Notes under the pieces: generated by a model
Told to the model about the DNA's origin: nothing
Databases searched by the model: none
Seen by the model: only the letters and a program-made list of their open reading frames with translations
Position numbers and translations under genes: made by a program
Assembly: GCA_039583875.1 (NCBI GenBank)
Contig: CM077149.1
Span: 23,573,194 to 23,637,193, forward strand
DNA from: Platanthera guangdongensis
Taxonomy: Eukaryota > Streptophyta > Magnoliopsida > Asparagales > Orchidaceae
Direction: 5' to 3'
DNA length: 64,000 bases
Shown here: piece after piece, positions 1-56,894 of the stretch
Position numbering within the stretch: the stretch's first letter is position 1
Layout: every line of letters starts with the position of its first letter

Positions 1-669
1 AGCACAGTAAATGCCAGATTAAATGGCAGGCTGGGCTTGGGTGCTTCATCAGGTTTACCCCCCATAATAAAGAAGAATATACTTTCCACTCCCATAAAGT
101 TTATCACTGCTAAGGGTAAAGAGAAACTAACTGAAAAACCCAGATCAGAAAACAAGTCATATCCCCTAGACAATAGCAACAAAAAACAGAAGAAAGCTGT
201 TAAAAACCAAGTTCAGCAGAATTCGTCAAACTTAGATCGACGAAATCCTGCAAGATCGTCGAACCCCGATCGACGAACGCTGAACGCAAACTTCAGAAAT
301 AATTATTCGTCCTACTGCGATCGACGAACTGTGTATGGTTCATTGAGCAGAGGTCGATGAACGTGGGACGCAAAAAATGACCATGATCATTCTCTGAGTG
401 GAGGTCGACGATCTCATGCCCATTCGTCAAACTCTGGTCAACGAACTTACAATAATTCGTCGATCCCAGAACGACCAAATATAAATAATTTCTCCTATAG
501 AAATTTTAAAACAGCTAACAAGACATTTAATCCAGTAGCTGATTGGATAATCCCACCTAGGAGATATCACCCACTAGGGTATAAGTCTCAACCTGTATTA
601 TCAGTCATTTCTAGTTTTACTTTTCAGCCAAACCAAGGACCCAAGGTAACCTGGGTCAAGAACAATTGA
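1..669 (+). pseudogene. gag C-terminal tail of element A
   Basis: The frame is open from base 1 to a TGA at 358-360, then continues in the same frame to a TGA at 667-669. The first residues match the gag of element E near 48150-48230 (both read STVNA, then LGASS). The tail is basic and rich in Ser, Asn and Arg, with repeated SSNxDRR peptides. These peptides are the translation of the inverted DNA motif TTCGTCGA...TCGACGAA at about 220-475. In Sireviruses gag binds RNA and forms the particle; only the linker after the zinc knuckles is visible here. The TGA at 358-360 may be CGA changed by C-to-T, since Arg is common at this position. The pol frame that follows is different, and a T-run with CAG lies at the junction (about 670-690). 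Confidence 0.75.
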
Positions 670-3883: not shown

Positions 3884-4150
3884 TCGACGAATTTTCCAGA
3901 GTTCGTCGAACGGAGTTTGACGAATTAGGGAAAGTTCGAGAGATTCTCGTCGAACGGAGATCGACAAATTCTCTGTGTGGAAACAATTTTCGTCGACCGG
4001 AGATCGACGAACCTTGTTTCAGAAACCATTTCGTCGAACGGAGTTCGACGAACTGTTTTCAATTCTTCTGAATGGGTTCGACGAACTACTCTCCTATACC
4101 TTATTTCGTCGATCTCAGTTCGAAGATCTGTCTTCTTTTTCGTGGAACGG
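3884..4150. repeat. TCGACGAA palindrome cluster between pol and ORF3 (element A)
   Basis: This non-coding gap holds about eight copies of TCGACGAA, TTCGTCGA or one-base variants, often paired in opposite orientation about 10 bases apart, so each pair forms an inverted repeat. The same motif fills the LTR of this element. ORF3 starts about 120 bases downstream. Confidence 0.85.
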
Positions 4151-4270
4151 AGCTTGTCGATTAATATTCTGAAAATCTTATATCTAGGTTTTCTTCGACC
4201 TCCGTCCCACGCTTTCAGTTCCTTTGCTCTTCATCACCGTTTTCTCTGTAATTTTCTTCGCAGGTCATCA

Positions 4271-7012
4271 ATGGCGATTCCTCCAGGAGCACTTGCAGCG
4301 ATGAAGTTTGATGCAGCATTCTCAATGGACTTTGAGTTCTTCCAGCATTCCGATCCAATTTTTCTGTATATCCTTGAATTACTTGAAGAATTGCATCTCA
4401 AGGACTTCATGACACGCAACATCAAGCTACACTCAACTGAGATAAGAGAATGAGTGTACACCGCCACAATTTCTGAAGATGGAAATCTGACAGGAACTAT
4501 TGGAAACACTGCCGTTTCCCTGTCCCCAGCAGTACTATCTGAAATATTTGGTCTGATCAATGGGGAAGACAACTTGGAAATGGACGCTGAGGAATATGCT
4601 GATATGCTGAAAGTCATGGGTTTCTCCAGCAACAACCCTAATAAGCTTCTGAAGAAACAACTGTCAGCCGCTTATCAATTTTTGGCCGACATTGTAGGGA
4701 AAATTCTAATGGGCAAGCACTCGGCACATGACTATATCACTCGCCATCAATTCCTGATCATGTGTACAGTGCTCAACAAGCGCCAGGTCGATTGGGACAT
4801 GGTTTTCTTTGACCTTATCAAGAAAAGAACTAGCAAGAAGGAAGTCTGCTACGACAGAATCCTGGGGATTTTCCTCCAGGAAAAGGCCAGTGAATGTCTG
4901 GTCTCCCCGACCACATTCATCAATGCCAGCAAACGCCTCACCTGCGCCTTGTTTGGCCGATTGGAGAGGACAATTAACAAACCCTCCAAGGGTTCCTCCT
5001 CCTCCATCAAGGCTTCTGAGAGCACCAGGACCGTCAAGGTCACTCCCCACCCTGACTCTGAAGAGGTCATTCCCCCTACCAAATCTCTTCCCACTCCTCC
5101 TGCACCTCAATTGACTCCACCTCAACATCAATCTCCACCGCCTGATCTTACACATATGCCAACACCTCCAGTTTCCCCCACTGCAACACCTATTCCCTCA
5201 CCCCCTCAATCCCCTCTTCCACCACACCTTTCCACTATTCCATCCTACACCATACCCACTGAACCACAACCTGTTCTACCTCCCTTATCCCCTCCACATA
5301 TTCTTCCTTCCTCCCCTACTATTTTCTCTCCACCTATGGATTCTTCCACCATTCCCTCCATCATCTCTCTTCTGACTCCTCTTATTAAATCACTCATCAC
5401 AGAGGCTATTACACCTCTAGTGAATTCCATTGATTCTTTATCTGCCCAAATCACAGCCCTCTCTGCTGCCCCCTCTTCATTCAGGGGCCTGGATCCAGGT
5501 TCTCCTGAACCCAGGTAGGGGGAGATGCTCCATGATGAAGCTGGTGCAGCAGCTGCAGAAGTGAATACAGTTGATACAAATACAGATACTACAGATACAG
5601 TTTTTGACACCATAGATACAGTTGATTCAGTGCTTGTTAATGCACTTGCAGTTACAGATACAGCAATTGATTTTATTCAATTCATGGACACTGACAGTAG
5701 CCTTGATGAGTCAGTAGATTCAATAACCACTGCTGGTGATTTCCTTATAAATCCCATAGTAAGTTTATCTGAGATACTTCAGATCTTTGATCCTGTGTAT
5801 ATGAAGCTTCCTTCAGTAGAGATTGCTAAGACATATTTGGCTATTGTCCAGTATACCTCTCCAGCAAGTCCAGTAGTTGCCAGGCAACTTTGTGCATCCT
5901 TTGCTGCCCCCACTACTGTTCCAACTCCTGTGTCTATTCCAGACATCTACCCTATCCCAGATTTTGTCATGGATGATTCTCCCATGCATGATCTGGATGA
6001 GCTCATTCTGGCAGACATTGAGGAAGAGAACAAGGCAGCAGCTGCAAGTTCTGTCTCTACTGCTGTTGAACCCTCACCCTCTGAACCTTCTATTCCCCCT
6101 CAAGAACGACCTCTTATCATTCCTGATGCCACTCTGAGGAAGCTGAATGCTTTGTATGATAATCCTCAGAGTTCAAATTCTGATGATGATGATGATGATG
6201 AATCAGATGAGGAGGCTACTAAAAAGAGAAAGAAGTTGCTCTCTAAGAAAAGGAAGGCTCCTCCTCCTCCTGCTCCCAAGCCTAATCCCACTGCAGACAC
6301 TCCATACTATATTCTGCATAATGTTGCTCCTTACAAAGGGATGCCTGCACGGATGTGGCTATCAAAGAACCAGCAAAAAGAGAGGAAGAGGAGTAGGAGA
6401 TACTCTCCTCCCCCAGTTCATAGATACGGAAAGGATCCTCCTCCTCCTCCTCCTCCTCCAGCAGCAGGTGCCTCTGGCTCTAGCTCTCAAAGATCTGCTC
6501 CTATTCAAACTTATCAGATACAAACATGGAGATCCTCTGGTAGTAGTCAGCCAAGGCCACCATCTTCAAGCAGTCAACACCATCAACAACAACAGCAACA
6601 GCACCAGGAATCTAAGAAACATGAAGCTGAAAGGCCCTATTCTCCTCCTGAAGATCCAGAAACAGCCAACACAGCCAGAATGGCAAGATTCCAAGAAATC
6701 ACTGGCTTATCTCTAATCAACAAAGCTAAAGCTGAAGGCAAGGACACAACAGGCTTAACTACTATGTCTCAGTACAGGAGAGATGAACTAAAAAGATTTG
6801 GGAAAGCAAACAAGCTACTCAATGTTGATGAGTACATGAATCTTCACCCAGAAGCAGTTGTCCCCAGAGCCACTTCACTGAACATCATAGGGGCAGCTGA
6901 CATGACTATGACCAAGGCTCAAGCTTCAGATCCCAATAGGGAAATCATTTTCAAGAATCCAGGAGATAAAGCAGCAGAAGTCAAGCCAAAACAGAAGAAA
7001 TCAGAGAAGTAA
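4271..7012 (+). pseudogene. ORF3 of element A with plant-transposon-protein-like domain, two stop codons
   Basis: One frame of about 914 codons runs from ATG 4271 to TAA 7010-7012. It is broken by TGA at 4451-4453 and TAG at 5516-5518. Element E has TGG and CAG at the same two places, so both breaks are G-to-A or C-to-T changes. The N-terminal 230 residues resemble the putative plant transposon protein domain seen in extra ORFs of plant retroelements (hallmarks: NPNKLLKKQL, LMGKHSAHDYITRHQF, RILGIFLQEKA). A long Pro/Ser/Thr-rich region follows, then an acidic patch (DDDDDDESDEE, about 6180) next to Lys-rich stretches, poly-Pro, a Gln/His-rich run and a conserved C-terminal block (YMNLHPEAVVPRA). 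No membrane segment is evident, so I see no support for an envelope role. The function is unknown. The spacer palindromes just upstream could serve its own promoter. Confidence 0.85.
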
Positions 7013-7204: not shown

Positions 7205-7387
7205 TTGTTGGATCCCTAGTTGATTTGGGCTAGGTTCACTGACTTAGGATGTGACCCATCATGTATAGTCTGGGTCAAGTTTGTGTCTTAGAGTCTAGGA
7301 CAGTCCTCTATCTCAACTTCAGATGGACCAGCCTTCTTCAAGACCATCAGGAACTTCAAATCTATCAGTTTTTCAGACTAAGTGGAA

Positions 7388-8075
7388 TGAGTTCGACGTT
7401 CGTCGAACTCAGCTCGACGAAGGAAGTTGTGCGCTCGACGATCGTGAGACAATTCGCAGTGCTGAGCTTGACGAACTTTGTTCTTTGCTCGACGAACACC
7501 GGATTCTACTTCAAGCATTCTCAGGACTACTTCAAATTTCTCTAAGCCCAGCTCCATGCTTCGGTCGACGAATTATTTTCTGAGCTCGACGAACTTGGAC
7601 CTCAAGTTCACAGCTTCTCAAGTTGACGAATGCTAATCTCTACTCCACGATTTTTTTTTGTGCTCAAAGAATCTGTGTCGACACTTAGGGCTTGTGTCGA
7701 CACCAGACGATTTGTGTCGACACCCAGGATTTCAGTTGACACCAGCTTGTGTCGACACCAGAGGATTTGTGTCGACACCTAGACCAATCTGTCGACACCA
7801 GAGGAGTTGTGTCGACACCAAGATCAATCTGTCGACACCAACTTATGTCGACACAGCATTTCAGTAGATGCAGAGTATTTCGTCCAAGCCGAGAACTTTT
7901 CTCAGGTCGACGAAGTTTATTCTCAGCTCGACGAATTTGGTTCTCTGCTCAACGAATAATGTTTGTCTGATATTGAAGATTGTCTATTCAACGAATGAAG
8001 ACTGTCAGCTCGACGAACTCAGCTTAGCTCGACGAACTCTTAACTCTGTTCGACGAATTCTGTTCTTCGGTCGAC
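7388..8075. repeat. Two-motif palindrome array in the LTR of element A
   Basis: About 15 copies of TCGACGAA-type motifs flank a compact inner block (about 7676-7856) of about ten GTGTCGACAC or near copies. TCGACGAA is the motif of A and E; GTGTCGACAC is the motif of B. Spacing is irregular (about 15-40 bases), so this is not a simple tandem satellite. All copies lie upstream of the TATA-like box, in the presumed U3. Confidence 0.85.
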
Positions 8076-8896
8076 GATTCCAGACTAGGTCTTCTTCCGT
8101 TCCCGTCGCATTTCATGGCGCTGATTCCTGGACAATTAATGGCAGTTCTTCACAGTATACTACCGTTAGGATGCGCAGTTAATTCTGGATTATTACATGT
8201 CATTTTCCCATGGAAACAGTTGGGAAAATAATTAATTGCTGCTTCCTTTCCAGGCCGTCTATCATTACTGCTCGACATTCAAAAATTCGAATGCTCTCTA
8301 TGACAGACAGAGATATACAGAAACCAGAAGTAATACAACAAGTACACAACATCAGACAACAACAAGAAGAGGATAGACAGTGATTCAGACAACACAAGAA
8401 AAAGAATTCATTCTTGGCCCAGAGAGAAATTGATCTAGAAGAAGAAGAAGAACATTACATCAATATCAAGAGTCTTCTTCATCTGCTTTTACTCAGGAGA
8501 ACTTCAAAACAATACATTCATATCAGTTGCAAGAAGTTCCTGAAGACTTTCTCTGGACCAGGAAATCTGGGTCTTTGAAGACCTATCACCCTGAAGCAGT
8601 GCTCCAATATTCTTCCTGATCCATTCTACATCTCAGGGGGAGCAAAGCTGCTAAATAACATTCAGCAAGTCTTCTCATTTGATTTGAGAAAGAGAAGACC
8701 TCATCACCCTCACTCCACCTCTGTACAGGGTTTTAATTCCCTTCAAAATTATTCTGGTTGCAAGTCTCCCACCAAAAGACTTGAGGGCTTGGTTTTTGGG
8801 AACCTGATCAAAACCCCATTGGTGCCAGGACACCTGATCAACCCCTTCCTACAGTGGATTCCTACCAGGGTGGTAGAAGAGTGGACTACCCAGATT

Positions 8897-8914
8897 TGGG
8901 GAACCACTATAAAA
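8897..8914 (+). promoter_or_regulatory. Putative LTR core promoter (TATA-like) of element A
   Basis: GGGGAACCACTATAAAA lies about 215 bases before the LTR end. The same sequence is found in E (46353-46369, 56699-56715) and in B on the minus strand (16937-16953, 28091-28108), although the LTRs otherwise differ greatly. Conservation plus a good TATA box makes it the likely transcription start region. The start site itself is inferred. Confidence 0.65.
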
Positions 8915-9289
8915 TTCTTGTGTCGTCTGGTTGCTTTCGTTCCTTTTTGTTTTCTGACCTTGCTCTGTGAATGTGCTGTGATTAGTCCATTGCTTTTTTT
9001 TTGGTTATTGTACTTGCTGCATACTCACACACACACACCTAAAATACAACAGCAGTTGTAAAAGTATCAAAATCACCATATACTCTATTCACCCCCTCTA
9101 GAGTATATCAGATCTAGCTGCACTTTCAACATGTCTATATATACCCAAAATTCCACACAAAACGGGCAGTGTGGAACTAAATCCCGCCTAGAATTACTAT
9201 AATCCCAGGTGGGATTAATTAAGCGGATTTAATCCCGCCTAAGTAGACGAGATTAAATCCCTCCTATACTTAGGCGGGATTTAATCCTG

Positions 9290-9840: not shown

Positions 9841-9842
9841 AT

Positions 9843-10165
9843 CCTGCCGTGGGGCGGGCGCAGCCAGTTGCGGGCGAATCCCGCTGTCACGGGCCAGGTA
9901 CTGTGACGCGTGACCATAGGGGCAGAGCCCCGTGTTGGTGGCGCAGCTATCCCGGGGGCGGGCAAAGCCCGCCGCGAGGCGGCCGTAGCCTGGTGCGGGC
10001 GAAGCCCGCCGTCACGGGTCGGGTACTGTGACGTGTAGCCATAGGGGCAGAGCCCTGTGTCGGTGGCGCAGCTATCCGGGGGGCGGGCGCAGCCCGCAGC
10101 GGGGAGGCCGCAGCCAGGTGCGGGTGAAGACCGCCGTCGCGGGCCGGGTACTGTGACGGCGGGCG
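9843..10165. repeat. GC-rich tandem repeat block, about three units
   Basis: Units of about 110-120 bases each contain GGGCGGGCG, CGGGTACTGTGACG and CATAGGGGCAGAGCCC. A related single unit occurs at 12425-12600. ORFs on both strands here are by-products of GC richness. Confidence 0.8.
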
Positions 10166-16746: not shown

Positions 16747-16936
16747 CTTCATGAAAGATATGGTACCTAAGCACTTAGAGGGGGGGTGGGGGGTGAATAG
16801 GTGACCTAATCCTTTTCTAACTTTGTTGGCAGCCAAACAGTTATATCACAGATTTCTAACTACTTTTGCACAGCAAATAGCAATAACAAAATATACACAG
16901 CTAATCCACAGCACAATCACAGCACAGCACACAGTG

Positions 16937-16953
16937 TTTTATAGTGGTTCCCC
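16937..16953 (-). promoter_or_regulatory. Putative LTR core promoter of element B (3' LTR copy)
   Basis: The minus strand reads GGGGAACCACTATAAAA, identical to the box in A and E, about 200 bases before the LTR end. The palindrome array lies upstream of it. Confidence 0.6.
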
Positions 16954-17789
16954 AAGATATGGGTACATCCACTTTCCCCCTTCGCCTATCTAGCAGTGTA
17001 CTAGATTCGGCCAAACTTCTCCACTGTCTCAGAACCCAAATTGGTTCCTACCTCAGGCCCAAAGCCTTACAACTCATCTTTATCCCAAAGCCTACACTCA
17101 GCCAATCAAGGCCTACACTCAGCCAACAAGGCCTACACTCAGAGATCTCTATCTCCTACACTCAGGCTAACAAGCCCTACCCTCAGCCTTTATAAATACA
17201 GGCTTACAATTCACTCAGATCCAATGGATCCTACAAGTTAAAAATGTAATACAAAAAATAACTCTACAACTCAGAATTAAAGGAGGGGAGTTGAGAGATT
17301 CTTGATGAGTTCTTGGAAGAACTCAGCTGGATTCACCCTGACTTAGCTTTCTTCAAAGCTTCTTGAGTAGAACTGAATAAGACTGAATCCTCTGCAGTTG
17401 TTCCTTGACCTCTGCTACTTAAGATCCAGAATTGAATCTGAATCCTTCTTCTCAGCCTAGTTCCAGAGGCTGATTTCTTGGATGGAGCCCTCTCTCTCCA
17501 ACTTCTTAGATCTGCACTTGAACTGCAAGATCTTCTTGTGTTGATTCTCTTTGTATTACTTCAATAATTACTTCAACAACTCTTAACCACTTTCAACAAC
17601 TTTGAACAACTCTGAACAACTCTGAACAACAGTTTCTGTAAACTGTAGTTGCCTATTTATAGGCTTTCTTCATGGTAACCGGCTGGACCGGTTCATAACT
17701 GACTTCTGACATCTCTGACAGTTGCTGTAGACCGGCTGGAACGACATCTGTCAAATCATCCAGTCACTTCTTGAAAATCTCTAACTGTC

Positions 17790-18785
17790 TGTAAGTGTCG
17801 AGACTTTCTGTCTTTAAGTGTCGACACTTATAGTCCAAGTGTCGACACATGTTGTGTAAGTGTCGACACAAGTCTACAAGGTGTCGACACAACTTCTTGT
17901 ATGTCTCGACACAGATTCTTCTGCATGTGTCGACACTGAAATTGAGTGTCGACACAAGTACTTGTTCTTCTTTCTTTAGCTGAATTCTTCTAAGTGTCGA
18001 CACATCTCCTTTGTGTCGACACAACTTCTTGTGTTGAATCTGTCAATGGTCGACACTGCTTCTTGGTGTCGACACATAGTCTTCTATGTTGATTCTTGCT
18101 GAGTGTCGACACAGCTCCTTGTGTCGACACACCTTCTTATTGTTGAGACTTCAGCTGAGTGTCGACACATTCCCTTAGTGTCGACACTTGTACTTAGAAT
18201 AATTTTGTTGATCTTTCTGATCTTTGCTAAGTGTCGACACTGCTCCATGTGTCGACACTTTCTTCTAGTGTTGAGTCTTCAGCTGTGTGTCGACACTTTG
18301 TTCTGGGTGTCGACACATACTTCAAATGTTGACTCTTCTGTTGAGTGTCAACACATTGTGTTGAGTGTCGACACTTACTTTAAATGCTGACTCTTCTGTT
18401 GAGTGTCGACACATTGTGTTGAGTGTCGACACATGCTTCAAGTGCTGACTCTTCTGCTTAGTGTCGACACATTGTGTTGAGTGTCGACACTTGTACTTTG
18501 TCTCTGCAGACTTTTGCTGAGTGTCGACACAGCTCCATGTGTCGACACTTTCTGGTGTAGACACAGCTTCACTGAGTGTCGACACAGCTCCTTGTGTCGA
18601 CACTTTCTGTCTGCACTTTTCTTCACTGAGTGTCGACACAGCTCCAAGTGTCGACACTTTCTGTCTGGTGTCGACTCTGCATCCCAGGTGTCGACACAAT
18701 GACTCCAAGTGTCGACACTGCTTGTCTGGGTGTCGACACAAGCTTTCTCAAGTTTCGACACATTCCCTCTGGGTGTCGATACATG
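17790..18785. repeat. GTGTCGACAC palindrome array in the 3' LTR of element B
   Basis: I count about 31 exact copies of the 10-base palindrome GTGTCGACAC, plus about 8 one-base variants, over 1 kb. Spacing is mostly 12-35 bases and irregular. Spacers are weakly related (AGCTCC, TTTCTG, ATTGTGTTGA recur). Because the core is palindromic, both strands give long false ORFs rich in CRHS and VSTLS. Confidence 0.92.
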
Positions 18786-18928
18786 GACTTAGAAACTTTT
18801 TTGCTTCAATCCAGTACTTTCTTAACCTGCACAAGTAACTCAAACATACATCAAATACATTATGATGTATATCATTGAGTTGGGTGAGGCTTCTTCAAAT
18901 CAGGTATATTTGACCAATGTACCCAACA

Positions 18929-18942
18929 ATCTCCCCCTATTT
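18929..18942 (-). other. Polypurine tract of element B
   Basis: The minus strand reads AAATAGGGGGAGAT directly before the LTR start at 18928. It is the same tract as in A and E. Confidence 0.9.
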
Positions 18943-19269
18943 GGAGAAGTCATAACCCTTAGTCAATGATATACACCATTCATAATTAAAGATTACAAAA
19001 TGATGTACAACAGATTATATTCAGCAGGGTAAACATAAACATGTAATATTTCACACATGTATACACATTCAACATTGCAGAACAAACAAGAAATAGACAT
19101 ATTCTCAGAACAATCATGAAATATATTTATCATATATTGTTCTAACATTTTTCTAATACATCTTCAATGGTTTACAAAAATGTTTTTCATTCAAAAGATT
19201 ACAACAATCTTCAATTCAATTCCTAATCTATTTCTGGTCTAGTTCTTTGATAACAATTCCTTTGCCAGG

Positions 19270-22066
19270 TTAGACTTGAGCTTTAACAGTGGCTTCAGCA
19301 GTTGCAGCATCAGCATGCTTCTTGCCTTTTAAGTCCTTCTTCTTCAGCTCTTCTGCTTTGATTTTCTGCCTTTCAAAGTAGTGATATGGCTTGGGGAAGT
19401 ACTTGCTAGGCTCCACTGCAGTAGGAGGTAGCTTTCCCATCTTAGCCTTCCTTCTATATTGAACAATGGCCTCCTGTCTTATTTCATGTTTCCTCCATTC
19501 TGCTTCAGAGAACCACTTGTTCCTTTCATGAGCATTGTCCTTGGCAGCTTTCCAGGCAGTTAGAATTATATTCCTAGAGGTAGGGCTCCACTGTTCAAAG
19601 TCTGGCCTTTGTTCTGCTTGTTCCCTAAACCTCTTCTTTGACAACCTTGTCTCTTCTTCTTTCTCTAATGCCTCTTGCATAGCTGCAGAAATTGGTTGAA
19701 CAACCTTTTCCAGAATAACATTGGACTTCCCTGCAGTTGGGCTATACATTGTGCTTACATCTGCATGAACCATGTCAAAATCTGGAGGTGGATAAATCAC
19801 TTGAGCTACCTCTGGTTGCTCACCTCCAAGATATGTAGTTTGAATCCCTGATTCAGCAACATTATCATCATCACAGAGTGGAGGATAGCACAGTGTAGCT
19901 CTGATGGAGTTCGATATCCATTTGGCATGGTCAGAGCTAGCTTTGACTAATACTCTCTCCCCCTTTATGACTTCTTGGGCAACATGATCTCTTACATCAT
20001 CTTTTTGAAATCTAATCTGACTATCCAAGTACCTGATTCCCTCTTTAAAGTAAGGTCTGAGCTTAGTGAGCTGTTCAGAGATGGCCTTCTAGGAATCTTG
20101 AATTGCAGTCTTGACAGCAGTAATCTCAGCTTGAAATACTTGATCAAAGTCAGCCTTGACTGCAGCAGCAGATGTAGAAGGTTCAGCAGTCTTATTCTTC
20201 AATTCAGTGACTATAACATTGTGTGAAGCAGTCAAGTTGTCATTCATCCTTAACTGATTTTCCAGTACATACCCTTGCTTCAATGCTATATCATCTACTT
20301 GTACTTTTATCTTCTCTTGGTGTGTTGCCAGATACACCACTGCATTGCTACCCTTGTGGAAGCAGTCTGTCATCTCTTTCTTGTTAAGGTTCATTTCAAA
20401 CCTTATAGACTTTATATCTTGTGCAAGATCAAACTGTAGGGATCTGTGCCCTGCATCAACATAAGCCTCTATGGCTTTCCTTTGTTCATCCATTTTTATC
20501 TACAGTGCAATCAGTAAAGCACTATAGTCAACAGTTGGAGCTTGTTGAACTATAGGCTGTGGGGCTATAGATTGCAAAGCCTTCTTATAACTCTGGCTTC
20601 TCCTCTTGAAGACATAGAGTTTCTTCTTTTTGGCCCTAGCACTCTCCTCATCTTCAGAGGCAGAAGTGCTGACAATATCAACCCTATCCTTAGGGCTTTG
20701 AGGCTTCTCAGTTTGCACAGCAGGTGCTTGCTCAGTTTCCAGCCTAATAGGCTCTTCCAGAACTGTCATTTGCTCCCCCTCAGCAACAACACTCTTATCT
20801 TCAGCAGCAGCATCCTTGTCCATATCAAAATCTTCTTGATCTAAATTTAGAAACAAATCTTCCATTATATATTCAGGTGGAGACTGTCCAGGAGAAGTTC
20901 TTGGTTCATCAACTACTTGATCAGGAACCACTTCTAGTACAACAGATGTGTCTTGGATAACAACATCTGGTTCTTGGCTAGGCAGCTGAGTTTGCTGAGG
21001 AACATCAGACAAATCAGCATCTTCTATAAGATATTCTAAAGTTTTTAGGTCAGTGAGTACCTCTTGGATAATGATGGTGGCTTGCTCACTGTCCAGTGTA
21101 GATGGTTCCTCTATAACTGGATGCTCCCCCTGGCTTTGATCCCTATGGATGGGGCTAGCTGGAGGCAGCTCCCCCTGGATCTCTACATCAGCTGGAGGAG
21201 CAGGAGTCTTGTCAGCAGGCTCTCCCTCATGATCATCTGGAGTGAAGACAACCTGTTCTTCACTATCAGAATCACTAGTGGACTCTACTTGTACAGTCTT
21301 TCTCTTCTTCTTTGGAGGAATTTCTTTTTCAGATACTGGCTTCTCAGGGGTTGACAGTTCCTTGGACAACACCCTGTCCCATCTAGAAAAGATCCTTTGA
21401 TCCATCTTCCTCATGTGGTTGATCTTACTTCCAGCAGCATTGCTCATTACCTCTGGTATTGTACCAGCTAGGTAGAGACTTATAATTCTGCCCAGATTAG
21501 GCTTCTTCAAGCTCTCCTTGATCTTGTCAAAAAACCACTATTGACCAGTCTGTTTTCAGAGTGAATATGATTCTAGTCATAATTCCAAACATAGAGGCAG
21601 ACACCCTGTCATGCCCTCCAGGCTTACTGAGAATAACCTTGCCCACAATCTCAGACATGAATTTTCCTTGACTGTTCATGCCTTTCCTGTTAAAGATAGA
21701 TCCTATCTTCATCTTTGGATCAAGTCCACACCAGGTAAGGGCTTCCCTGGTCTTGGATGTAGTTACTTCTTCTTCATCTTGTGTTTTAGGTAGCTGGAGT
21801 ACCTTCCTCAGACTTTTTGGTGAAATCTTGACTTTAGATCCATGAACTCTGGATTTGATTCTATATCCAGAGTCATCTACAGCAGCTCCATTAAGGAATT
21901 CAAGAACTTCCTTCTTCCAAATCTTTGTTGGTTCTGAAACCAAGTATTCTAGTCCAGAATTGGCGACTAGGGTTACCACCGACTTGATTTCTTGATCAGC
22001 TTCATCGAACGCGCCGCGCACTAGCTCATAGCCCTCGTTAATGTTCTCCTCAAGCTTAGGAGCCAT
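19270..22066 (-). pseudogene. ORF3 of element B with plant-transposon-protein-like domain, broken
   Basis: It starts at ATG 22066 (MAPKLEENIN) and ends at 19270. One frameshift in a T/A run near 21533-21538 and stops near 20497 and 20086 split it into four open stretches (22066-21527, 21510-20500, 20493-20089, 20028-19270). The first 200 residues match the domain in A and E (VLQLPKTQDEE, KPGGHDRVSASMFGIM). Then come an acidic Ser-rich region, a basic patch (KKKKLYVFKRR), Gln/Pro-rich sequence, a predicted helical stretch and a Lys-rich end. The C-terminal part differs from A and E, so this is another ORF3 family. The function is unknown. The antisense of this ORF holds several CTCCCCCT motifs. 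Confidence 0.8.
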
Positions 22067-22084
22067 TAGGGTTTGGAGAATTAG

Positions 22085-22550
22085 TCTTTAGAAAAGAGAG
22101 GTGTCGACACAATAGTTTTGGTCTCGAAACTTTGAAAGCGTGTCGACAAACAAAGACAGAACCCTATTTATACCTTTCTGATTTTGAAGATGAACAGGCG
22201 GGACAGCTAGCTTAAAATGTGTCGACACTGACAATAAGTGTCGACACTGACTTATAATGTCTCGACACATATGTGTCGACACAAGTTTAGTCAACAAATT
22301 TTATGTGTCGACACTTGGTTATGTGTCGACACAACATATCTCGACACATAGTCGAGACTTTACTTAGAAAATTCTGAGTAAAACTTAAGTGTCGACACCA
22401 CATTGGATGTGTCGACACCTACAGGACATGTGTCGACACTAACATTCTGAAGTGTCGACACCACATTCCTAGATGTGTCGATACCTTTTTCTTGAAGTGT
22501 CGACACCACTATTCTGTGTCGACATAGACTTGTCTATGTGTCGACACCTT
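22085..22550. repeat. GTGTCGACAC cluster between pol and ORF3 (element B)
   Basis: About 12 exact copies plus variants lie in the 515-base gap between the end of pol (22581) and the ORF3 start (22066). They are the same motif as in the LTR of this element. The position equals that of the TCGACGAA cluster in A and E. Confidence 0.9.
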
Positions 22551-22580
22551 TTTACTTAGCCAATTTTCTATTCTGTAAAC

Positions 22581-25500
22581 TTAGTCTAAGTTTATCATTC
22601 CTAGTTCAATTTTGAATCTATTGAACTTAGCTTCTTCTAGGGGCTTAGTAAACATGTCAGCTATCTGATTATCAGTTTTAACATATTCAAGTGAAATATC
22701 TTCTCTTTCTACATGTTCTCTAAGAAAGTGATATTTAATCTCAATATGTTTTGTTCTACTATGAGATACAGGGTTATTAGCTATTGAAATAGCACTTGTA
22801 GAATCACAGTAAAGTGGAGTTCTACTTACCTGAAATCCATAGTCCTCTAGCTGATGTTGAATCCACAGAAGTTGAGTACAGCAACTTCCTGCAGCCACAT
22901 ACTCTGACTCAGCTGTGGAGATAGCCACACTGGTTTGCTTCTTGCTGCTCCATGAAATTAGTCTCCCACCTTGGAATTGACAGGTTCCAGTAGTGCTCTT
23001 TCTATCCTCTTTGCATCCTGCAAAGTTTGCATCTGAATAACCTGTTAGATCAAAGTCTCCATTCCTAGGGTACCAGAGGCCTAGATAGGGAGTGCCCTTT
23101 AGATATCTCAATATTCTTTTGACTGCAGTCAAATGAGACTCTTTAGGGCAGGCTTGATACCTTGCACAAACACATGTAGCATACATGATGTCTGGTCTAC
23201 TAGCAGTCAAGTATAATAGGGAGCCAACTATCCCTCTATACAAGGTTTCATCTACAGGTTTCCCTGCATCATCCTTGCTAAGAGACATACTAGACCCCAT
23301 AGGAGTCTTCATGGTACTGGATGAATCCATACCATACTTCCTTATGAGTTCTAGGGTGAACTTTGACTGACATATGGATAAACCATTTTCAGTCTGTTTA
23401 ACTTGGAGACCCAAGAAAAACTTCAGCTCTCCCATACTACTCATTTCAAACTGACCTTGCATAAGTTTTGCAAACATTTTGCAAAGGCTTCTTTCAGTAG
23501 ACCCAAATATAATGTCATCTACATATATTTGGACTAGTATGACTTTGCCTCTAGATTCCCTAAGGAATAGAGTCTTATCTATTTTCCCCCTTGAAAACTT
23601 GTTCTCAATGAGGAAACTAGATAGGGTTTCATACCAAGCTCTAGGAGCTTGCTTTAACCCATATAAAGCTTTCCTAAGTCTATAGAGATAATGAGGTAGA
23701 GTTGGATCAACAAAACCTGAAGGCTGTTCCACATAGACTTCTTCTTTCAAATTACCATTTAGGAATGCTGACTTGACATCCATTTGGTATACCTTGAATC
23801 CTTGATAGGTTGCATAGGCCAAGAACATTCTTATGGCTTCCAGTCTGGCTACTGGAGCAAAGGTTTGATCAAAATCAATACCTTCTTCTTGCCTATATCC
23901 TTTAGCAACCAGTCTAGCTTTATTCTTAATGATGACACCTTGTTCATCCATCTTATTCCTGTAGATCCACTTAACTCCTATTACATTGTGGTCTTTAGGT
24001 TTAGGAACAAGTTCCCAAACCTTGCACCTCTTGAACTGATTAAGCTCTTCTTGCATTGCTTCAGTCCATTGTGGATCTTGTATTGCTTCTTCAAACTTTC
24101 TTAGGTTCAACTTGTGACAGAAAGCTGGAATAGATTGCAGCATTCTGATTTCTGCTCCTTGTTTGAACTCCTTGTCTTGGATCTCCAATAATCAGCTCCA
24201 CTAGATGATCTCTAAGATGCCTGTGGGCTGGAGGCATCCTCACTTCAGGTTGAACCACTTCAGCATCTGCATCATGCTGTATACCTTGGATTTCTTCAGC
24301 AACTGGCACATGTAGTTCTCCCCCTGGATAGCAGCTACTCTCCTCTCCTTGCTGTCTTGCAACAGGCACTTCTTCTATAGTAAGCTTGTCCATTTTCTTT
24401 GTCAAACCTGTGGGGCTGCATACATTGCTAGACAACTCATTATTAATAAGTTTAGTCTCATCAAAAATTACATGCACTGATTCTTCTACAACTTGTGTAG
24501 TCAAGTTATAGACTCTATAAGCCTTACTATTATTGCTGTACCCAACAAAAATTCCCTCTTGGGACTTGGCAGTAAACTTAGTTATGTAAGACTTCCCATT
24601 GTTAAGTATGAAGCATTTGCAACCAAAGATCCTGAAATAGGATAGGTTTGGTTTCCTGCCTTTCACAACTTCATAGGGGGTCTTGTTTAGCCCTTTAGTG
24701 ATGGTAGCCCTATTTATAACATGGCATGCAGTGTTAACTGCTTCAGCCCAGAAATACTCTGGCAGTGATGTATCACTTAATAGGGTCCTACCAGCCTCTA
24801 TCAAGGTCCTATTCTTCCTCTCAGCAATGCCATTTTGCTGAGGTGTTCTAGGTGAAGAGAATTCTTGAAATATCCCAAAGTCTTCACACAGTTTTGTCAT
24901 GCTTTCAGACTGAAACTCAGTACCATGATCACTTCTAATTTTGACCACAGTACTATTTAGTTCATTCTGAATTTGCTTGACAAAGCTGTAGAAGACAATA
25001 GGTGTTTCAGATTTCTGTCTTAAGAAGAACACCCAAGAAAACCTTGAGTAGTCATCTACAACTACAAGGGTATAGACCTTCCTACCTAAGCTGTGAACTG
25101 ACATTGGACCAAAGAGATCCAAATGCAAGAGGTACAAACACCTCACAGCATCTTTGTTTTCTATGCTTTTAAAGGTGGATTTAGTCTGCTTGCCCTTTTG
25201 ACAAGCTGAGCAAATGCCTTCTTTAACACACTTAACTTGAGGACCATTCCTCACTAACTCTTTGTTAAAGAGTTTGCTAATAGTCTTGTAGTTAAGATGG
25301 GCAAACCTCTTGTACCATTTGACACAATGAGAGACTGTCTCATCAGCTACAAGACAAACTGGAGAACCATTGTTCTCAACCAGAATGTCTAGGCAGTAGA
25401 CATTCCTTTTCCTATAACCTGTCAAAATGATCTCTTGATCACTTGACCTCTTGATATGACAACCATTTTTGGCAAATGAGATGTCATACCCTACATCACT

Positions 25501-25749
25501 TAATTGACTTATACTTATTAGGTTGTGTTTCAACCCTTTAACATAAGCCACTTGAGTAATGGTAACTAAGTTTGAAGAAATGTTACCAAACCCTTTGATG
25601 ATTCCTTTTTCAGAACCACCAAAGGTCACTTTAGGACCATTTTTGATTGGAATGTAGTCCTTCAGTAGTCCCCTAGTTCCAGTCATATGTCTGGAACATC
25701 CACTGTCCAAGTACCATGTAGGGGTATGACCACTTAGACTCACCTGCAA
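22581..25749 (-). pseudogene. pol polyprotein of element B, one frameshift
   Basis: Two overlapping open stretches (25749-24091 and 24188-22581) make one copia pol of about 1055 codons. It has the protease (YLDSGCSRHMTG), integrase zinc domain (ICSACQKGKQ), integrase core D-D-E ([27 protein letters not shown]), reverse transcriptase ([21 protein letters not shown]) and RNase H ([18 protein letters not shown]) up to MFTKPLEE. A single-base change near 24105 shifts the frame between the integrase C-terminus and reverse transcriptase. All catalytic residues I checked are present. The gag stop lies 7 bases upstream in the same frame, as known for Sireviruses, where pol may be made by readthrough. 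Confidence 0.93.
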
Positions 25750-25755
25750 AACAAA

Positions 25756-27798
25756 TTAATGAACCTTAGAACCCAAAGTATTCTTGGGTCCTTGGTGATT
25801 GTTAGTTTGCAATTTGACAAACCTACCTACTGGCTTTCCAGCAGTTAGCTTGCTACTCACCTTGGCACTGGCATTGTGCCAACAGTCCACTACAAAATGG
25901 CCAATTTTGCCACAGCACCAGCATTCAAACTTATTGTACCTTTGCTTAGGTACTGCCTTGGCTGTCTTGACTACAACAGGCTTGTTGAATGTTGGGGCTT
26001 TGCCCTTGGACTTAGACTTGGACTGCTCAGTCCTTGCAGGTCTAATAAAGCCCAGTCCAGCTTTACCCTTGTGATGAACAAATTCATCAATTATGGGTAA
26101 CACTGACTTAGGTTTAGAAAACCTAGCAACCAAGTCCTTCTCCTTCTGAAGATTGTTCTCCAGACACTTAATTTGATCATTCTTAAAAGTGATAGTTCCC
26201 ATCTGAATCATTGTTATGTGTTTCAGTCTGGCTATCTCATTCAGTTTTTGATCAAATTGCTTCTCAAAATCTATTGCAGCAGCTTTAAGATCAGCAATTT
26301 CCTTTGCCTGACTTTTGGCAAGGGACTTGCTTTTATTGTAAGCTTGCAACAGCACTCTATATTCATCTATAAGTAGATGAATATCATCCTCAGACTCAGA
26401 TACATTCTCATCACTTGATGAAGAAGAATCTGAATCTGAACTAGAACAAGAGACTGAATTTAAACTTGAACTTTGTACCTGACTGGGTCCTGGCTGCTCC
26501 AGGATTTTGGCACTTTCTGTCAAAGCCATTATCCCTTGGCAATGACTGTCTTCTGGTTCATAAATTGACTCCAAGATCTGCATGAACTCTTCCTCTTCTT
26601 CTTCAGCAAACAGCCCTAGGTAGGCTTCAGCCTCAGACTCAGTTTCTGAAGAAGAGATATCTGATAGAGTCTTCTCCTTTTTAGCAACAAAAGACTTTTC
26701 TTTCTTCCCTTTGAAGTGAGTCTTTTTCCTGTCACCAGATTCCTTTCTCTTCTCTGGACAATCTGCAATAACATGGCCCTGTCTATTGCAGCAATAGCAA
26801 ACAATCTTTGAACCAGTTGCCTTGCATGACTTTGTCCTCTTCCTGTCTTTCTTTGAAGACTTTTTCTCCTGATGAAAGACTTCCTTTCCCTTTGAAGAAG
26901 AAGGTCTTGACTTCCACTGTTTCTTCCTTAAGAATTTCTGAAAGTGTATAGTGAAGGCAGCAAAGTCTTCATCACTTTCACTGCTTTCACTCTTTGTGCT
27001 GATAGACTCATCAGATTCTGATTCAACTACCTCTGGAGGTGGAGTTGAAGACTTATTCCTGCACTTTCTGGGAACTTCTGTCTTGAAAGCAACAGTTCTT
27101 TCTTTGTGCTCAGTCCTTGTTGATTTCTCCTCCTCTTTTCTCACTGTTAACTGCATTTCATAAGACAATAGCTTGCCAAACAGTGTGGGAGGAGGAATTT
27201 CCCCCAACTTGGCCATTTCTCTTATGGCACAGATCTTGGTGTCCCAATCTTTGGTTAGGGACCTTAGGAATTTGTCATTTAGTTCATAGTTATTGAACTC
27301 TCTTCCATAAGACATGAGTTCATTAACTATTCTGTAAAATTTCTTATAGCACTCAGTGATGCTATCACCCTTTCCTTGACTAAAGCTTTCATACTCCTGA
27401 TTTAGCAAGGACTTCCTGTCTTGCCTAACTTCTTCAGAACCTTCCATATAGACAATGAGAGTATCCCACATTTCTTTTGCTATTTTACAGTGAATTAAGT
27501 TCTGAAAAGTTGCATCATCAATGGCACTCACTATTATGTTTTGTGCCCTCTTGTCCATGGTGGCCAGGACAATTTCATCCTTAGTCATCTCAGAGAAATC
27601 CTTTGGAGTTCTCTGATTTGCATCTAGAACTGAAATCTTCATAGGCACATAAGGCCCTTCCTTTACTGTGATGTAGATTCTAGGGTCAGAGGCTTCCATA
27701 AATAGCCTCACCCTTTCTTTCCAGATCCCAAAGATCTCCTTCCTGCATATGGGTAATTTCATGGAACCCAAATCCTTGTGATTCTCATAGGAACCCAA
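25756..27798 (-). CDS. gag of element B, 680 residues, intact
   Basis: The ATG at 27798 starts MGSYENHKDLGS, about 100 bases after the primer site. A UBN2/Retrotran_gag_2-like domain spans about residues 15-230 (KEMWDTLIVYMEGSEEVR is characteristic). A Ser/Glu-rich linker follows. There are two CCHC zinc knuckles, one at about residue 330 (CYCCNRQGHVIADC) and one at about residue 635 (CWCCGKIGHFVVDC). Between them lie acidic stretches and a Leu/Lys-rich probable coiled coil (about 480-560). Gag packages the RNA in cytoplasmic particles. The stop is TAA, followed in the same frame by pol. The lack of lesions over 2 kb supports recent insertion. Confidence 0.93.
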   Translation of the reverse strand: MGSYENHKDLGSMKLPICRKEIFGIWKERVRLFMEASDPRIYITVKEGPYVPMKISVLDANQRTPKDFSEMTKDEIVLATMDKRAQNIIVSAIDDATFQNLIHCKIAKEMWDTLIVYMEGSEEVRQDRKSLLNQEYESFSQGKGDSITECYKKFYRIVNELMSYGREFNNYELNDKFLRSLTKDWDTKICAIREMAKLGEIPPPTLFGKLLSYEMQLTVRKEEEKSTRTEHKERTVAFKTEVPRKCRNKSSTPPPEVVESESDESISTKSESSESDEDFAAFTIHFQKFLRKKQWKSRPSSSKGKEVFHQEKKSSKKDRKRTKSCKATGSKIVCYCCNRQGHVIADCPEKRKESGDRKKTHFKGKKEKSFVAKKEKTLSDISSSETESEAEAYLGLFAEEEEEEFMQILESIYEPEDSHCQGIMALTESAKILEQPGPSQVQSSSLNSVSCSSSDSDSSSSSDENVSESEDDIHLLIDEYRVLLQAYNKSKSLAKSQAKEIADLKAAAIDFEKQFDQKLNEIARLKHITMIQMGTITFKNDQIKCLENNLQKEKDLVARFSKPKSVLPIIDEFVHHKGKAGLGFIRPARTEQSKSKSKGKAPTFNKPVVVKTAKAVPKQRYNKFECWCCGKIGHFVVDCWHNASAKVSSKLTAGKPVGRFVKLQTNNHQGPKNTLGSKVH

Positions 27799-27900
27799 GT
27801 TTCTTGATTTTCTTGAATTTCTTGAATCTGTGTTTTCCCTTACACTGAATCTGCCAAACAGGATCTCCTCAGACTGTTAGTCCTTGTTTTGAGGAACCTC

Positions 27901-27912
27901 GCTTTGATACCA
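27901..27912 (-). other. Primer binding site of element B (initiator Met tRNA)
   Basis: The minus strand reads TGGTATCAAAGC two bases after the LTR end. It differs by one base from the complement of the initiator tRNA-Met 3' end (TGGTATCAGAGC). Confidence 0.9.
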
Positions 27913-27914
27913 CT

Positions 27915-30083
27915 TGAAAGATATGGTACCTAAACACCTAGAGGGGGGTGAATAGGTGACCTAATCCTTTTCTAACTTTGTTGGCAGCCAAACAGTTATA
28001 TCACAGATTTCTAACTGCTTTTGCACAGCAAACAGCAATAACAAAATATACACAGCTAATCCACAGCACAATCACAGCACAGCACACAGTGTTTTATAGT
28101 GGTTCCCCAAGATATGGGTACATCCACTTTCCCCCTTCGCCTATCTAGCAGTGTACTAGATTCGGCCAAACTTCTCCACTGTCTCAGAACCCAAATTGGT
28201 TCCTACCTCAGGCCCAAAGCCTTACAACTCAGCTTTATCCCAAAGCCTACACTCAGCCAATCAAGGCCTACACTCAGCCAACAAGGCCTACACTCAGAGA
28301 TCTCTATCTCCTACACTCAGGCTAACAAGCCCTACCCTCAGCCTTTATAAATACAGGCTTACAATTCACTCAGATCCAATGGATCCTACAAGTTAAAAAT
28401 GTAATACAAAAAATAACTCTACAACTCAGAATTAAAGGAGGGGAGTTGAGAGATTCTTGATGAGTTCTTGGAAGAACTCAGCTGGATTCACCCTGACTTA
28501 GCTTTCTTCAAAGCTTCTTGAGTAGAACTGAATAAGACTGAATCCTCTGTAGTTGTTCCTTGACCTCTTCTACTTACGATCCAGAATTGAATCTGAATCC
28601 TTCTTCTCAGCCTAGTTCCAGAGGCTGATTTCTTGGATGGAGCCCTCTCTCTCCAACTTCTTAGATCTGCACTTGAACTGCAAGATCTTCTTGTGTTGAT
28701 TCTCTTTGTATTACTTCAATAATTACTTCAACAACTCTTAACCACTTTCAACAACTTTGAACAACTCTGAACAACTCTGAACAACAGTTTCTGTAAACTG
28801 TAGGTGCCTATTTATAGGCTTTCTTCATGGTAACCGGCTGGACCGGTTCATAACTGACTTCTGACATCTCTGACAGTTGCTGTAGACCGGCTGGAACGGC
28901 ATCTGTCAAATCATCCAGTCACTTCTTGAAAATCTCTAACTGTCTGTAAGTGTCGAGACTTTCTGTCTTTAAGTGTCGACACTTATAGTCCAAGTGTCGA
29001 CACATGTTGTGTAAGTGTCGACACAAGTCTACAAGGTGTCGACACAACTTCTTGTATGTCTCGACACAGATTCTTCTGCATGTGTCGACACTGAAATTGA
29101 GTGTCGACACAAGTACTTGTTCTTCTTTCTTTAGCTGAATTCTTCTAAGTGTCGACACATCTCCTTTGTGTCGACACAACTTCTTGTGTTGAATCTATCA
29201 AGTGTCGACACTGCTTCTTGGTGTCGACACATAGTCTTCTATGTTGATTCTTGCTGAGTGTCGACACAGCTCCTTGTGTCGACACACCTTCTTATTGTTG
29301 AGACTTCAGCTGAGTGTCGACGCATTCCCTTAGTGTCGACACTTGTACTTAGAATAATTTTGTTGATCTTTCTGATCTTTGCTAAGTGTCGACACTGCTC
29401 CATGTGTCGACACTTTCTTCCAGTGTTGAGTCTTCAGCTGTGTGTCGACACTTTGTTCTGGGTGTCGACACATACTTCAAATGTTGACTCTTCTGTTGAG
29501 TGTCGACACATTGTGTTGAGTGTCGACACTTACTTTAAATGCTGACTCTTCTGTTGAGTGTCGACACATTGTGTTGAGTGTCGACACATGCTTCAAGTGC
29601 TGACTCTTCTGCTTAGTGTCGACACATTGTGTTGAGTGTCGACACTTGTACTTTGTCTCTGCAGACTTTTGCTGAGTGTCGACACAACTCCAAGTGTCGA
29701 CACTTTCTGGTGTAGACACAGCTTCACTGAGTGTCGACACAGCTCCTTGTGTCGACACTTTCTGTCTGCACTTTTCTTCACCGAGTGTCGACACAGCTCC
29801 AAGTGTCGACACTTTCTATCTGGTGTCGACTCTGCATCCCAGGTGTCGACACAATGACTCCAAGTGTCGACACTGCTTGTCTGGGTGTCGACACAAGCTT
29901 TCTCAAGTGTCGACACATTCCCTCTGGGTGTCGACACATGGACTTAGAAACTTTTTTGCTTCAGTCCAGTACTTTCTTAACCTGCACAAGTAACTCAAAC
30001 ATACATCAAATACATTATGATGTATATCATTGAGTTGGGTGAGGCTTCTTCAAATCAGGTACATTTGACCAATGTACCCAACA
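27915..30083 (-). repeat. 5' LTR of element B
   Basis: It runs on the minus strand from TGTTGGGTACATTGG (30083) to ATCTTTCA (27915), 2169 bases. It differs from the 3' LTR at only scattered positions. It carries the palindrome array at 28945-29940 and the TATA-like box at 28108-28091. Confidence 0.95.
28945..29940. repeat. GTGTCGACAC palindrome array in the 5' LTR of element B
   Basis: About 32 exact copies. A few copies that are mutated in the 3' LTR are perfect here (for example near 29195, 29515 and 29910-29930), and one is mutated here (GTGTCGACGC near 29315). The ancestral array was therefore even more regular. Confidence 0.92.
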
Positions 30084-52017: not shown

Positions 52018-52200
52018 AGGTCGAAGAATTGATCCCATTTCGTCGAACGGATATCGACGATCTGAGAACAGTTCTTGAGATTCTTCGTTGACCTGAGATC
52101 GACGAACTCTCTGCGTGAAGTTATTTCGTCGAGCAGAGATCGATGATCTTGGTTCAAAAAAAAATTTCATCGGCCTGAGAATGACGAAATGTTTTCCCTT
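52018..52200. repeat. TCGACGAA palindrome cluster between pol and ORF3 (element E)
   Basis: About six motif copies, several mutated, occupy the same position as the clusters in A (3884-4150) and B (22085-22550). ORF3 starts at 52398. Confidence 0.75.
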
Positions 52201-55364: not shown

Positions 55365-56894
55365 TGTTGTATCCATAGTTTGGATTTTGGCTAGGTTCAC
55401 TATTAGGTTATTGACCCTCCAGGTATAGCCTAGGGTCAAAATGTTAGTTCTGAGGTCTAGGTCAGTTTGACTACGTTAGACAAACATTGATCCATCTCTC
55501 AGAAGAAATCAAAGATCTAGACATTGAAGAATAGCAGTCTTTAAGAGTTCAAAGAATCAGTTCGAAGTTCTTCGAACTCAGCTCGACGATCGTCGATCGC
55601 AAATCGATGAACTCAAAGTCCCTACTCTGAGCTAAGCTCAATGAACTTGGAGCTCAAGTCGACGATCTTCCCTCTTCTCTTAAGTTCTCTGGTCGACGAA
55701 ATGCTATCTCAGGTCGACGAACTTGGAGCTCAGCCTTGACAGACTATTTTCCAGATCAACTTTCTCTGATCTCAGCTCGACGAAGACGATTTCTCAGCTC
55801 GACGAACTTGTAGTTCAGGTCGACGAAATATGTCATGAGTTCGACGATTTCTCTCAGTATCAGTTTGGCATTTTCTCTCAGTTTGATTTCAGTTTGGATT
55901 ATTCTAAGGCAGTAATTCTCCGGTAATTAATGCCCATATTCTCAAGAATATTGCCATTGCTTGGCAGCATTAATTATTGATTTCATAGAGTAATTACTTG
56001 CCTTATTTACAGAGACAGTTGAGGAAACACATTTAAGTCAGATTCCAAGCGTTCAAGTCCCAGGATTTTCAACATTAAATTCAGGAATTCAAATTTCAAA
56101 TGGCAGAAATCTTTCAGAATATAAAAGTCAGATTCTGCTCATGAGCATAACAAGAACAAGGAAGGGAATTATAAGAGATCTGTTACAGAACAATTGATAC
56201 AAGTTTTATAGAGAAATAGATTGCCATCTATAGGAAATTGAAGAAGAACATCAACACCCATATCTTTAGACTTCTTAAGTTTCTGCTTCAAACTTCAAAA
56301 GGGACAACTATTCAACAACAGTACAAGAAGCTTCTGAAGATATTCATCAAGACCTACACCCTGTGCAAAGCTTTCATCTTCCTGAACCATTCAATATCTC
56401 AGGGGGAGCTTTGACAAGATCAAATCCATTAGTCTTCTCTTAGACTGTTGACAAAGTAGAACATCATCAATTTTCTTTTTCCCACTATGTACAGGGTTAT
56501 AACTCTCATCAAAAGTTAACCCCTTTGGTTTTGGGGCATCTAATCAAAAGCTCAAAAGGGTTGTGAGATCTCCGTTGAAAAAATAAATCTTGTGATGACA
56601 GGGCACCTGAGCAAAAACTTGTGGTGGCAGGGCACCTGATCAAAAATGTATAGTGGATTCCTATCAGGGTGGTAGAAGAGTGGATGTACCCAAGTTTAGG
56701 GGAACCACTATAAAATTCTTGTGTCGTCTAGATTGCTCTATTATTTAGTTTTTAGGTGCTGTGATTATTTTGTTTTCTTCACTCTTTATATATATACTTA
56801 TCACTTTTTTTTAATCCGCTGTAAAAATTAATTGAATTTTTAAAATACTTTTTACACCCCATCTAGAGTTAAACAGATCTATCCCTCACTTTCA
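55365..56894 (+). repeat. 3' LTR of element E
   Basis: 1530 bases from TGTTGTATCCATAG to CTCACTTTCA. About 9 of the first 105 bases differ from the 5' copy. The palindrome cluster is at 55560-55845, better preserved than in the 5' LTR, and the TATA-like box is at 56699-56715. Confidence 0.95.

Follow-up and report, generated by a model that had tools for sequence, protein, structure and literature searches.

The expression of the extra gene of Sireviruses, both its mechanism and its purpose, has been a question since at least 2002, the year in which an internal promoter was put forward as a hypothesis, as recounted in excerpts of Bousios et al. (2010; PMC2829016). The question is raised again by a 64,000-nucleotide stretch of the genome of the orchid Platanthera guangdongensis (contig CM077149.1, positions 23,573,194 to 23,637,193; hereafter the window), which carries a Ty1/copia Sirevirus, element B, whose third open reading frame (ORF3) is separated from pol by a non-coding gap filled with short palindromic boxes. 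According to the same excerpts, palindromic repeated motifs (RM) occur in Sirevirus long terminal repeats (LTRs) upstream of the TATA box, and nine Sireviruses bearing an envelope-like (ENV-like) gene hold further RM copies, 77 of 79 of them upstream of that gene; these copies form CpG islands and are reported as absent from the linker of elements that lack the gene. An internal ENV promoter was proposed there, with none described as conclusively identified. Both the box layout and the idea of an internal promoter had therefore been published by 2010, and the boxes of the window are a new variant of the motif; new here are the constraint on the boxes, a candidate TATA box before ORF3, a match between LTR and gap motifs that extends to a single base, a third array inside coding sequence, and an ORF3 that looks nuclear and unlike an envelope. 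The reading proposed below, to which we assign a probability of roughly 0.65, is that the gap array would act as the control region upstream of an internal ORF3 promoter, built from the same RM box as the LTR promoter and served by one factor at both places.

The Box Array Between pol and ORF3

The original prediction, made from the letters of the window, held that about 12 copies of a motif shared with the LTR sit directly upstream of ORF3 in element B and nowhere else in the interior. A scan for GTGTCGACAC with at most one mismatch bears this out, as the gap contains 16 boxes (12 exact and four with one mismatch), the two LTR arrays of element B together contain 77, and neither pol nor ORF3 of the element contains any. 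The rest of the 104 sites in the window fall in the LTR of a second element, A (nine sites), or are strays (two), and this total compares with an expectation of 0.79 from 100 dinucleotide shuffles of the window, among which the largest count was 3. By Tandem Repeats Finder, the LTRs and the gap of element B alike contain overlapping arrays whose periods are ∼18–22 bp. Across the 4.25-Gb genome, paired GTGTCGACAC boxes 5–15 bp apart occur at 971,003 places and a control pattern at 1; since the pair pattern reads the same on both strands, the two strand counts denote the same places. Helical phasing of the boxes, whose median spacing is 21 bp, was considered and not used, a period of 10.5 bp being no more preferred than others.

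CpG reaches 1.08 times its expected frequency in the gap, against 0.00 for pol and 0.07 for ORF3. The window copy of element B is decayed, with both ORF3 and pol interrupted; among 20 other B copies, five have an ORF3 frame that stays open over 786 to 947 codons (the start spelling was not located in three of the 20). As an observation in its own right, CpG is absent from pol in this copy despite LTRs that are 98.5% identical to each other, and the depletion of the coding region is therefore probably a property of the family rather than a result of decay in the window copy.

The boxes are also conserved beyond their surroundings. Among 30 close B gap copies, including that of the window, 48 of 4770 box letters (1.0%) differ from the column majority, vs. 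383 of 9527 spacer letters (4.0%), a fourfold difference, and the first bases of ORF3 differ at 241 of 4372 positions (5.5%); box columns were labelled by column majority here and in the A family below, which introduces a slight bias toward conserved columns. This set and the 20-copy set, which have eight copies in common, are the top-scoring matches of one search and not a random sample. Within the boxes, 15 of 983 CpG letters (1.5%) and 33 of 3787 other letters (0.9%) differ. In a methylated genome, CpG-containing boxes should be lost sooner than other sequence, and their conservation despite CpG therefore argues for function. The same pattern extends to three diverged B-type relatives (L083, L085, and L086), found among eight copia RNase H places that were picked for unlike site spellings from the first 100 entries of a family-blind list of 28,745 + 28,734 places: box letters are kept at 87.7, 95.6, and 95.0%, respectively, spacer letters at 61.9, 72.7, and 69.4%, and the start of ORF3 at 72–77% identity. 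The array is real and constrained, and most likely regulatory.

A Candidate Internal TATA Box

Past the array and ahead of the ORF3 start codon lies TATAAATAGG, a candidate internal TATA box, and the same sequence stands in the LTR of element B at ∼28816, 134 bp past the last box of the LTR array. A TATA-like octamer is unremarkable alone, and the case therefore rests on its conservation. The sequence TATAAATAG is kept in 27 of the 30 close B gaps; in the 20-copy set it is present in 18 gaps and after the LTR array in 16 copies, three copies without a downstream LTR array (L048, L053, and L057) being counted as misses. All 10 letters of TATAAATAGG are retained in each of the three diverged relatives. 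Genome-wide, TATAAATAGG followed by a box 45–65 bp on is found at 9,327 places (4679 + 4648) and the reversed-pattern control at 0, and 16 of the first 20 such places stand 535–635 bp past a same-strand RNase H site of the list, which corresponds to the gap.

Transcription of ORF3 in element B would be expected to begin ∼30 bp past TATAAATAGG, near position 22140, giving a leader of ∼70 nt. The original prediction had proposed an internal promoter under the same control as the LTR, and for element B this proposal is well supported, at the sequence level, by the succession of array, TATAAATAGG, and ATG, which is kept in most close copies and in all three diverged ones; on these sequence features, ORF3 of element B is probably transcribed from an internal promoter.

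Gap and LTR Motifs Change Together

The window holds two further elements, A and E, for which the same arrangement had been claimed with a motif of their own. This holds as far as half-sites in gaps and LTRs are concerned: exact TCGACGAA / TTCGTCGA sites number eight in the gap and 10 in the LTR of element A, and three in the gap, two in the 5′ LTR, and five in the 3′ LTR of the decayed element E. Every one of 17 A-family gaps contains 5–10 TCGACGAA half-sites, and GTGTCGACAC was found in none of them. Two things had been missed, namely a GTGTCGACAC block within the A LTR and a third array of TCGACGAA sites in the gag-pro coding region of A and E. In element A, this third array encodes repeated DRRT/DRRN-like peptides.

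Whether gap and LTR arrays change together across related elements had been put forward as a check, and the outcome is positive for three motif classes, GTGTCGACAC, TCGACGAA, and TCGACGAT. Expressed as sites per kb, the GTGTCGACAC density in element B is 24.3 in the gap and 15.7 and 14.2 in the LTRs, with no TCGACGA; in its diverged relative L086 it is 20.4 in the gap and 17.3 in the LTR (L089), and 17 of the 20 B copies carry an LTR array of at least 18 GTGTCGACAC boxes. The gap of element A has 19.4 TCGACGAA and 0 TCGACGAT sites, and its LTR 5.8 and 1.2. These values are reversed in the copy L079, with 0 TCGACGAA and 22.9 TCGACGAT sites in the gap and 0.5 and 6.5 in the LTR (L087, identified as that of L079 with a polypurine tract (PPT) at 320). 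Element E is decayed and mixed, at 7.6 / 2.5 in the gap and 1.4–3.5 / 1.4–2.8 in the LTRs (TCGACGAA / TCGACGAT). Gap and LTR motifs thus match in all three classes, the TCGACGAT LTR being that of one element, and the match extends to the last base of the half-site, which distinguishes TCGACGAA from TCGACGAT. The TCGACGAA class comprises the window's A and three of four further pieces; the fourth (L077), intended as an A LTR, has one site only and is not counted as an LTR array. A candidate LTR of L083 (L088) was dropped from the comparison, as its match is to the later portion of an LTR of A/E type.

The dyads formed by these half-sites are similarly uniform. In the stretch of C1 that is also covered by the RNase H list, the 67 listed dyads comprise 37 of TT type, 29 of AA type, and one mixed. 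Apart from 30 of the 67 that have no listed place nearby, they lie near 20 RNase H places, and at the 11 places with at least two dyads a single type is present in 11 of 11. Six of these 11 have dyads in more than one compartment, five in the gap and 3.3–4.4 kb upstream, and one in the gap and at LTR distance.

The Factor Reading the Boxes

From the boxes, their constraint, the conserved TATA box, and the matching of LTR and gap motifs, we infer that a factor binds the boxes, that ORF3 RNA starts in the gap, and that the same factor acts at both places. Such a sequence-specific DNA-binding factor would read the box in LTR and gap, and full-length RNA and ORF3 RNA would be switched together by it, so that ORF3 and the full element would be co-regulated.

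The reader of the boxes could be a host transcription factor responding to, for example, stress or hormones, which we regard as a genuine possibility at somewhat less than an even chance. The excerpts of Bousios et al. (2010; PMC2829016) report mainly stress-factor matches for other RMs; against a host factor, three motif classes matched between LTR and gap in related elements of one genome would each time need a change of factor.

The second candidate is the product of ORF3. In five of five long open B-type frames, the protein has a charged N-terminus with a PP[KR]KKRK motif, and its strongest 19-residue mean hydropathy is 0.99–1.29; judged by hydropathy, the signal peptide plus transmembrane helix of an envelope was not found in B-type ORF3. 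Hydropathy and motif spelling make B ORF3 look like a nuclear protein rather than an envelope. KKRK clusters are also present in pieces of the ORF3 of A and E, with hydropathy peaks of 1.37 and 1.41 in the A pieces and of 1.66 in one E piece, so that E is less clear. ORF3 of A and ORF3 of B share a homologous N-terminal part, with 42 identical residues out of 180 in a pairwise comparison (E 5e-14), and both match PF20167 weakly, below the cut-off. Because the boxes of A and B differ, homologous proteins travel with different boxes, which would look like what is expected of a fast-evolving DNA-binding pair. Homologues in the protein search are Platanthera orchid proteins only (one 63% identical, six 64–72%), and fold prediction of the N-terminus for seven sequences gave no usable fold (mean predicted local distance difference test score, pLDDT, 43.7). 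None of the titles and abstract openings listed in the literature searches credits a Sirevirus ORF3 with box binding or anti-silencing.

As a tentative conjecture, one that we think will fail rather more readily than it will hold, ORF3 may be no envelope but a nuclear, sequence-specific self-activator or anti-silencer that binds the boxes of its own family in the LTR, before ORF3, and in the gag-pro region of A-type elements, each family keeping a private, co-evolving pair of protein and box on the model of VANC and the VANDAL motifs. Were this so, the ‘envelope-like’ gene of very abundant plant retrotransposons would be a self-recognition switch, and the GTGTCGACAC block would let A-type LTRs respond to the ORF3 of another family. 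The single-base difference between TCGACGAA and TCGACGAT in related families offers a ready specificity test of such motif–protein pairs.

Alternative Explanations and Points Against the Internal Promoter

Several observations weigh against a shared control region and an internal promoter. With regard to the boxes, their spacing has no clear 10.5-bp phase, and A-family sites are less constrained than those of B, with 55 of 1887 letters (2.9%) off the majority vs. 228 of 4937 (4.6%) elsewhere in the gap. With regard to the matching, the A LTR holds its second motif, the GTGTCGACAC block, without a counterpart in the A gap, and such a block within the TCGACGAA array recurs in three of four further A-type pieces (L075, L076, and L078); of the 20 dyad places just 11 bear on concordance, the nine with one dyad saying nothing on it, and all six multi-compartment places are TT, that is, of the TCGACGAT type. 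With regard to the TATA box, a TATA-like octamer within 150 bp by a loose consensus occurs in 13.6% of mononucleotide shuffles for B. Finally, an AG stands at −21 of the ORF3 ATG in 26 of 26 close B copies (AAG in 23, CAG in three; the start codon spelling was found in 26 of the 30), and a pyrimidine tract with CAG or TAG directly precedes the ORF3 ATG in elements A and E of the window and in the copies L079 and L084.

These last observations point to splicing as the source of ORF3 RNA, from a transcript begun in the 5′ LTR, a route predicted for the env-like genes of Athila and BAGY2, with the gap array serving as an enhancer, a chromatin mark, or the like. For A-type elements the signs are stronger: of 16 fetched A-family copies, 15 have the CAG 9 nt ahead of the ATG (L059 differs), and the TATA-like TATATCTAG stands only ∼80 bp before this acceptor-like site and, as a TATA box by itself, is not above chance, the loose TATA consensus being matched by 72% of shuffles for A, 88% for E, and 73% for L079. 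The claim of an internal promoter is thus only partly supported for A and E, which perhaps make ORF3 by splicing, a spliced RNA being at least as likely there as an internal promoter. In B-type elements, however, the AG is mostly AAG and is kept at −21 in none of the three diverged relatives (L083 has AAG at −18; L085 and L086 have no AG in 45 nt), so that a canonical acceptor ahead of the ATG is not shared by them, whereas all three retain the TATA box in full. We hold splicing to be a serious rival but less likely than not.

The palindromes might instead act as hairpins in RNA or DNA, perhaps ones targeted by small-RNA silencing, and not as protein sites. The RNA of the gap folds far better than its shuffles (z −10, 100 shuffles), symmetric dyads (66 of the 67 being AA or TT) also fit base-pairing, and palindrome clusters of maize Sireviruses are linked to small RNAs in the excerpts of PMC10760457. 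A hairpin, however, needs complementarity and not a fixed 10-mer, and the exact sequence is conserved between loci and in diverged elements; moreover, the half-sites of the A LTR are nearly one-way (11 forward, one reverse) yet follow the last base of their family, those of L087 being divided 9 and 5. We consider hairpins in place of protein sites improbable, and a small-RNA role may be either a rival of or parallel to the role as protein sites. That the arrays are mere copying artefacts, produced by tandem duplication or by gene conversion between LTR and gap, agrees with the ∼18–22-bp periods noted above and is very improbable in view of boxes that contain CpG yet vary less than their spacers in close copies and diverged elements. 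An internal ORF3 promoter controlled by the gap array remains the preferred reading, above all for element B.

Features of the Window

Table 1. Positions in the window of the features of elements A, B, and E.
Feature	Position	Strand	Details
Third array, gag-pro coding region of A	237..463	+	four exact TCGACGAA sites
Gap array of A	3884..4112	+	TCGACGAA / TTCGTCGA half-sites, several as 23-bp dyads
TATATCTAG before ORF3 of A	4179..4187	+	kept in 16 of 17 A-family copies
CAG (splice-acceptor-like) and ORF3 ATG of A	4261..4273	+	
3′ LTR of A	7206..8940	+	TCGACGAA array 7399-8057; embedded GTGTCGACAC block 7675-7854
Element B, Ty1/copia Sirevirus	16752-30083	-	LTR pair with gag, integrase, and RVT_2 domains
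3′ LTR of B	16752..18928	-	RM array 17795-18782 inside
ORF3 of B	19270..22066	-	ATG 22066-22064; two in-frame stops and a frameshift in this copy
RM array of B upstream of ORF3	22101..22547	-	GTGTCGACAC boxes
TATAAATAGG, candidate internal TATA box	22163..22172	-	106 bp before the ORF3 ATG
gag-pol of B	22581..27876	-	gag, zinc knuckle, GAG-pre-integrase, integrase, RVT_2; one stop and one frameshift
5′ LTR of B	27915..30083	-	RM array 28950-29937 inside
Third array, gag-pro coding region of E	48410-48618		four exact sites
Gap array of E	52039..52132	+	three exact TCGACGAA sites; decayed
TAG and ORF3 ATG of E	52387-52400	+	
3′ LTR of E	55365..56796	+	TCGACGAA/T sites 55693-55827

Other repeats of the window include a motif class TTGAGTGA / TCACTCAA with a period of ∼60 bp at 63502–63833, a similar motif being found in the copy L082 just past its apparent PPT–LTR junction. 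A 232-bp unit is repeated ∼5.8 times with 92% matches at 36832–38165 and is not tied to the elements studied, and a long AT-rich tandem array at 9329–9841 (periods of 37, 112, and 210 bp) adjoins a GC-rich array at 9846–10158.

Comparison With Known Systems

Element B resembles the Sireviruses in most respects. Its domains follow the Ty1/copia order with a copia-type reverse transcriptase (Retrotran_gag_2, gag_pre-integrs, rve, and then RVT_2, 4.9e-75; the domain search returned no protease match as such), a PPT of sequence GGGGGAGATTGTTG adjoins the 3′ LTR at 18937, and a PolyC-rich integrase signal, CACCCCCCTCTAGG, was recognised by eye near the 3′ end of the LTR. The sequence AGGGGGAG, a candidate for the multiple PPT copies that Sireviruses have upstream of the 3′ LTR, occurs four times within B ORF3, both strands counted. 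As in the Sireviruses of Bousios et al. (2010; PMC2829016, excerpts), high-copy palindromic boxes stand in the LTR before the TATA box and again 5′ of the extra gene. Boxes are present in the linker where an ENV-like gene is present and lacking where it is absent, the absent case being that of L082, whose PPT–LTR junction seems to adjoin pol directly, with no box and no ORF3. Among the controls, L080 and L082 have no box downstream of pol, and three boxes at 499–590 of the 600 bases of L081 are taken as unrelated to the end of pol. Unlike most published RMs, GTGTCGACAC has no CGG-CCG core; the same excerpts give this core for the RM of all 13 elements but Tnd-1, and the core is therefore usual and not required. 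Two further differences from that account are the location of a candidate TATA box upstream of ORF3 and the additional array in the gag-pro coding region of A-type elements.

Outside the genus, a similar anatomy is that of the VANDAL transposons of Arabidopsis, in which, according to excerpts of Sasaki et al. (2023; PMC10398659), the accessory protein VANC localises to family-specific motifs in tandem-repeated non-coding regions, with a loss of methylation, and undoes silencing. Family-specific arrays of short motifs, unlike from one related family to the next, stand in non-coding parts and accompany an accessory gene in both cases; VANDALs, however, are Mu-like DNA transposons, and the likeness is one of anatomy, with no membership claimed. 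An accessory gene between pol and the 3′ LTR is likewise found in Grande of maize (gene23) and in the accessory open reading frames (aORFs) of Retand. In excerpts of PMC7264820 and PMC11963269, gene23 is said to have its own promoter and is called a nuclear protein (in the title of a cited 2013 paper), and TRP28 of Retand is described as probably binding DNA; those elements are Ty3/gypsy with the gene antisense, whereas ORF3 here is Ty1/copia and sense. In SIRE1, a member of the same genus, an env-like accessory ORF likewise follows pol, and the arrangement described here differs from it in the ∼500 bp of box array that stand between pol and ORF3.
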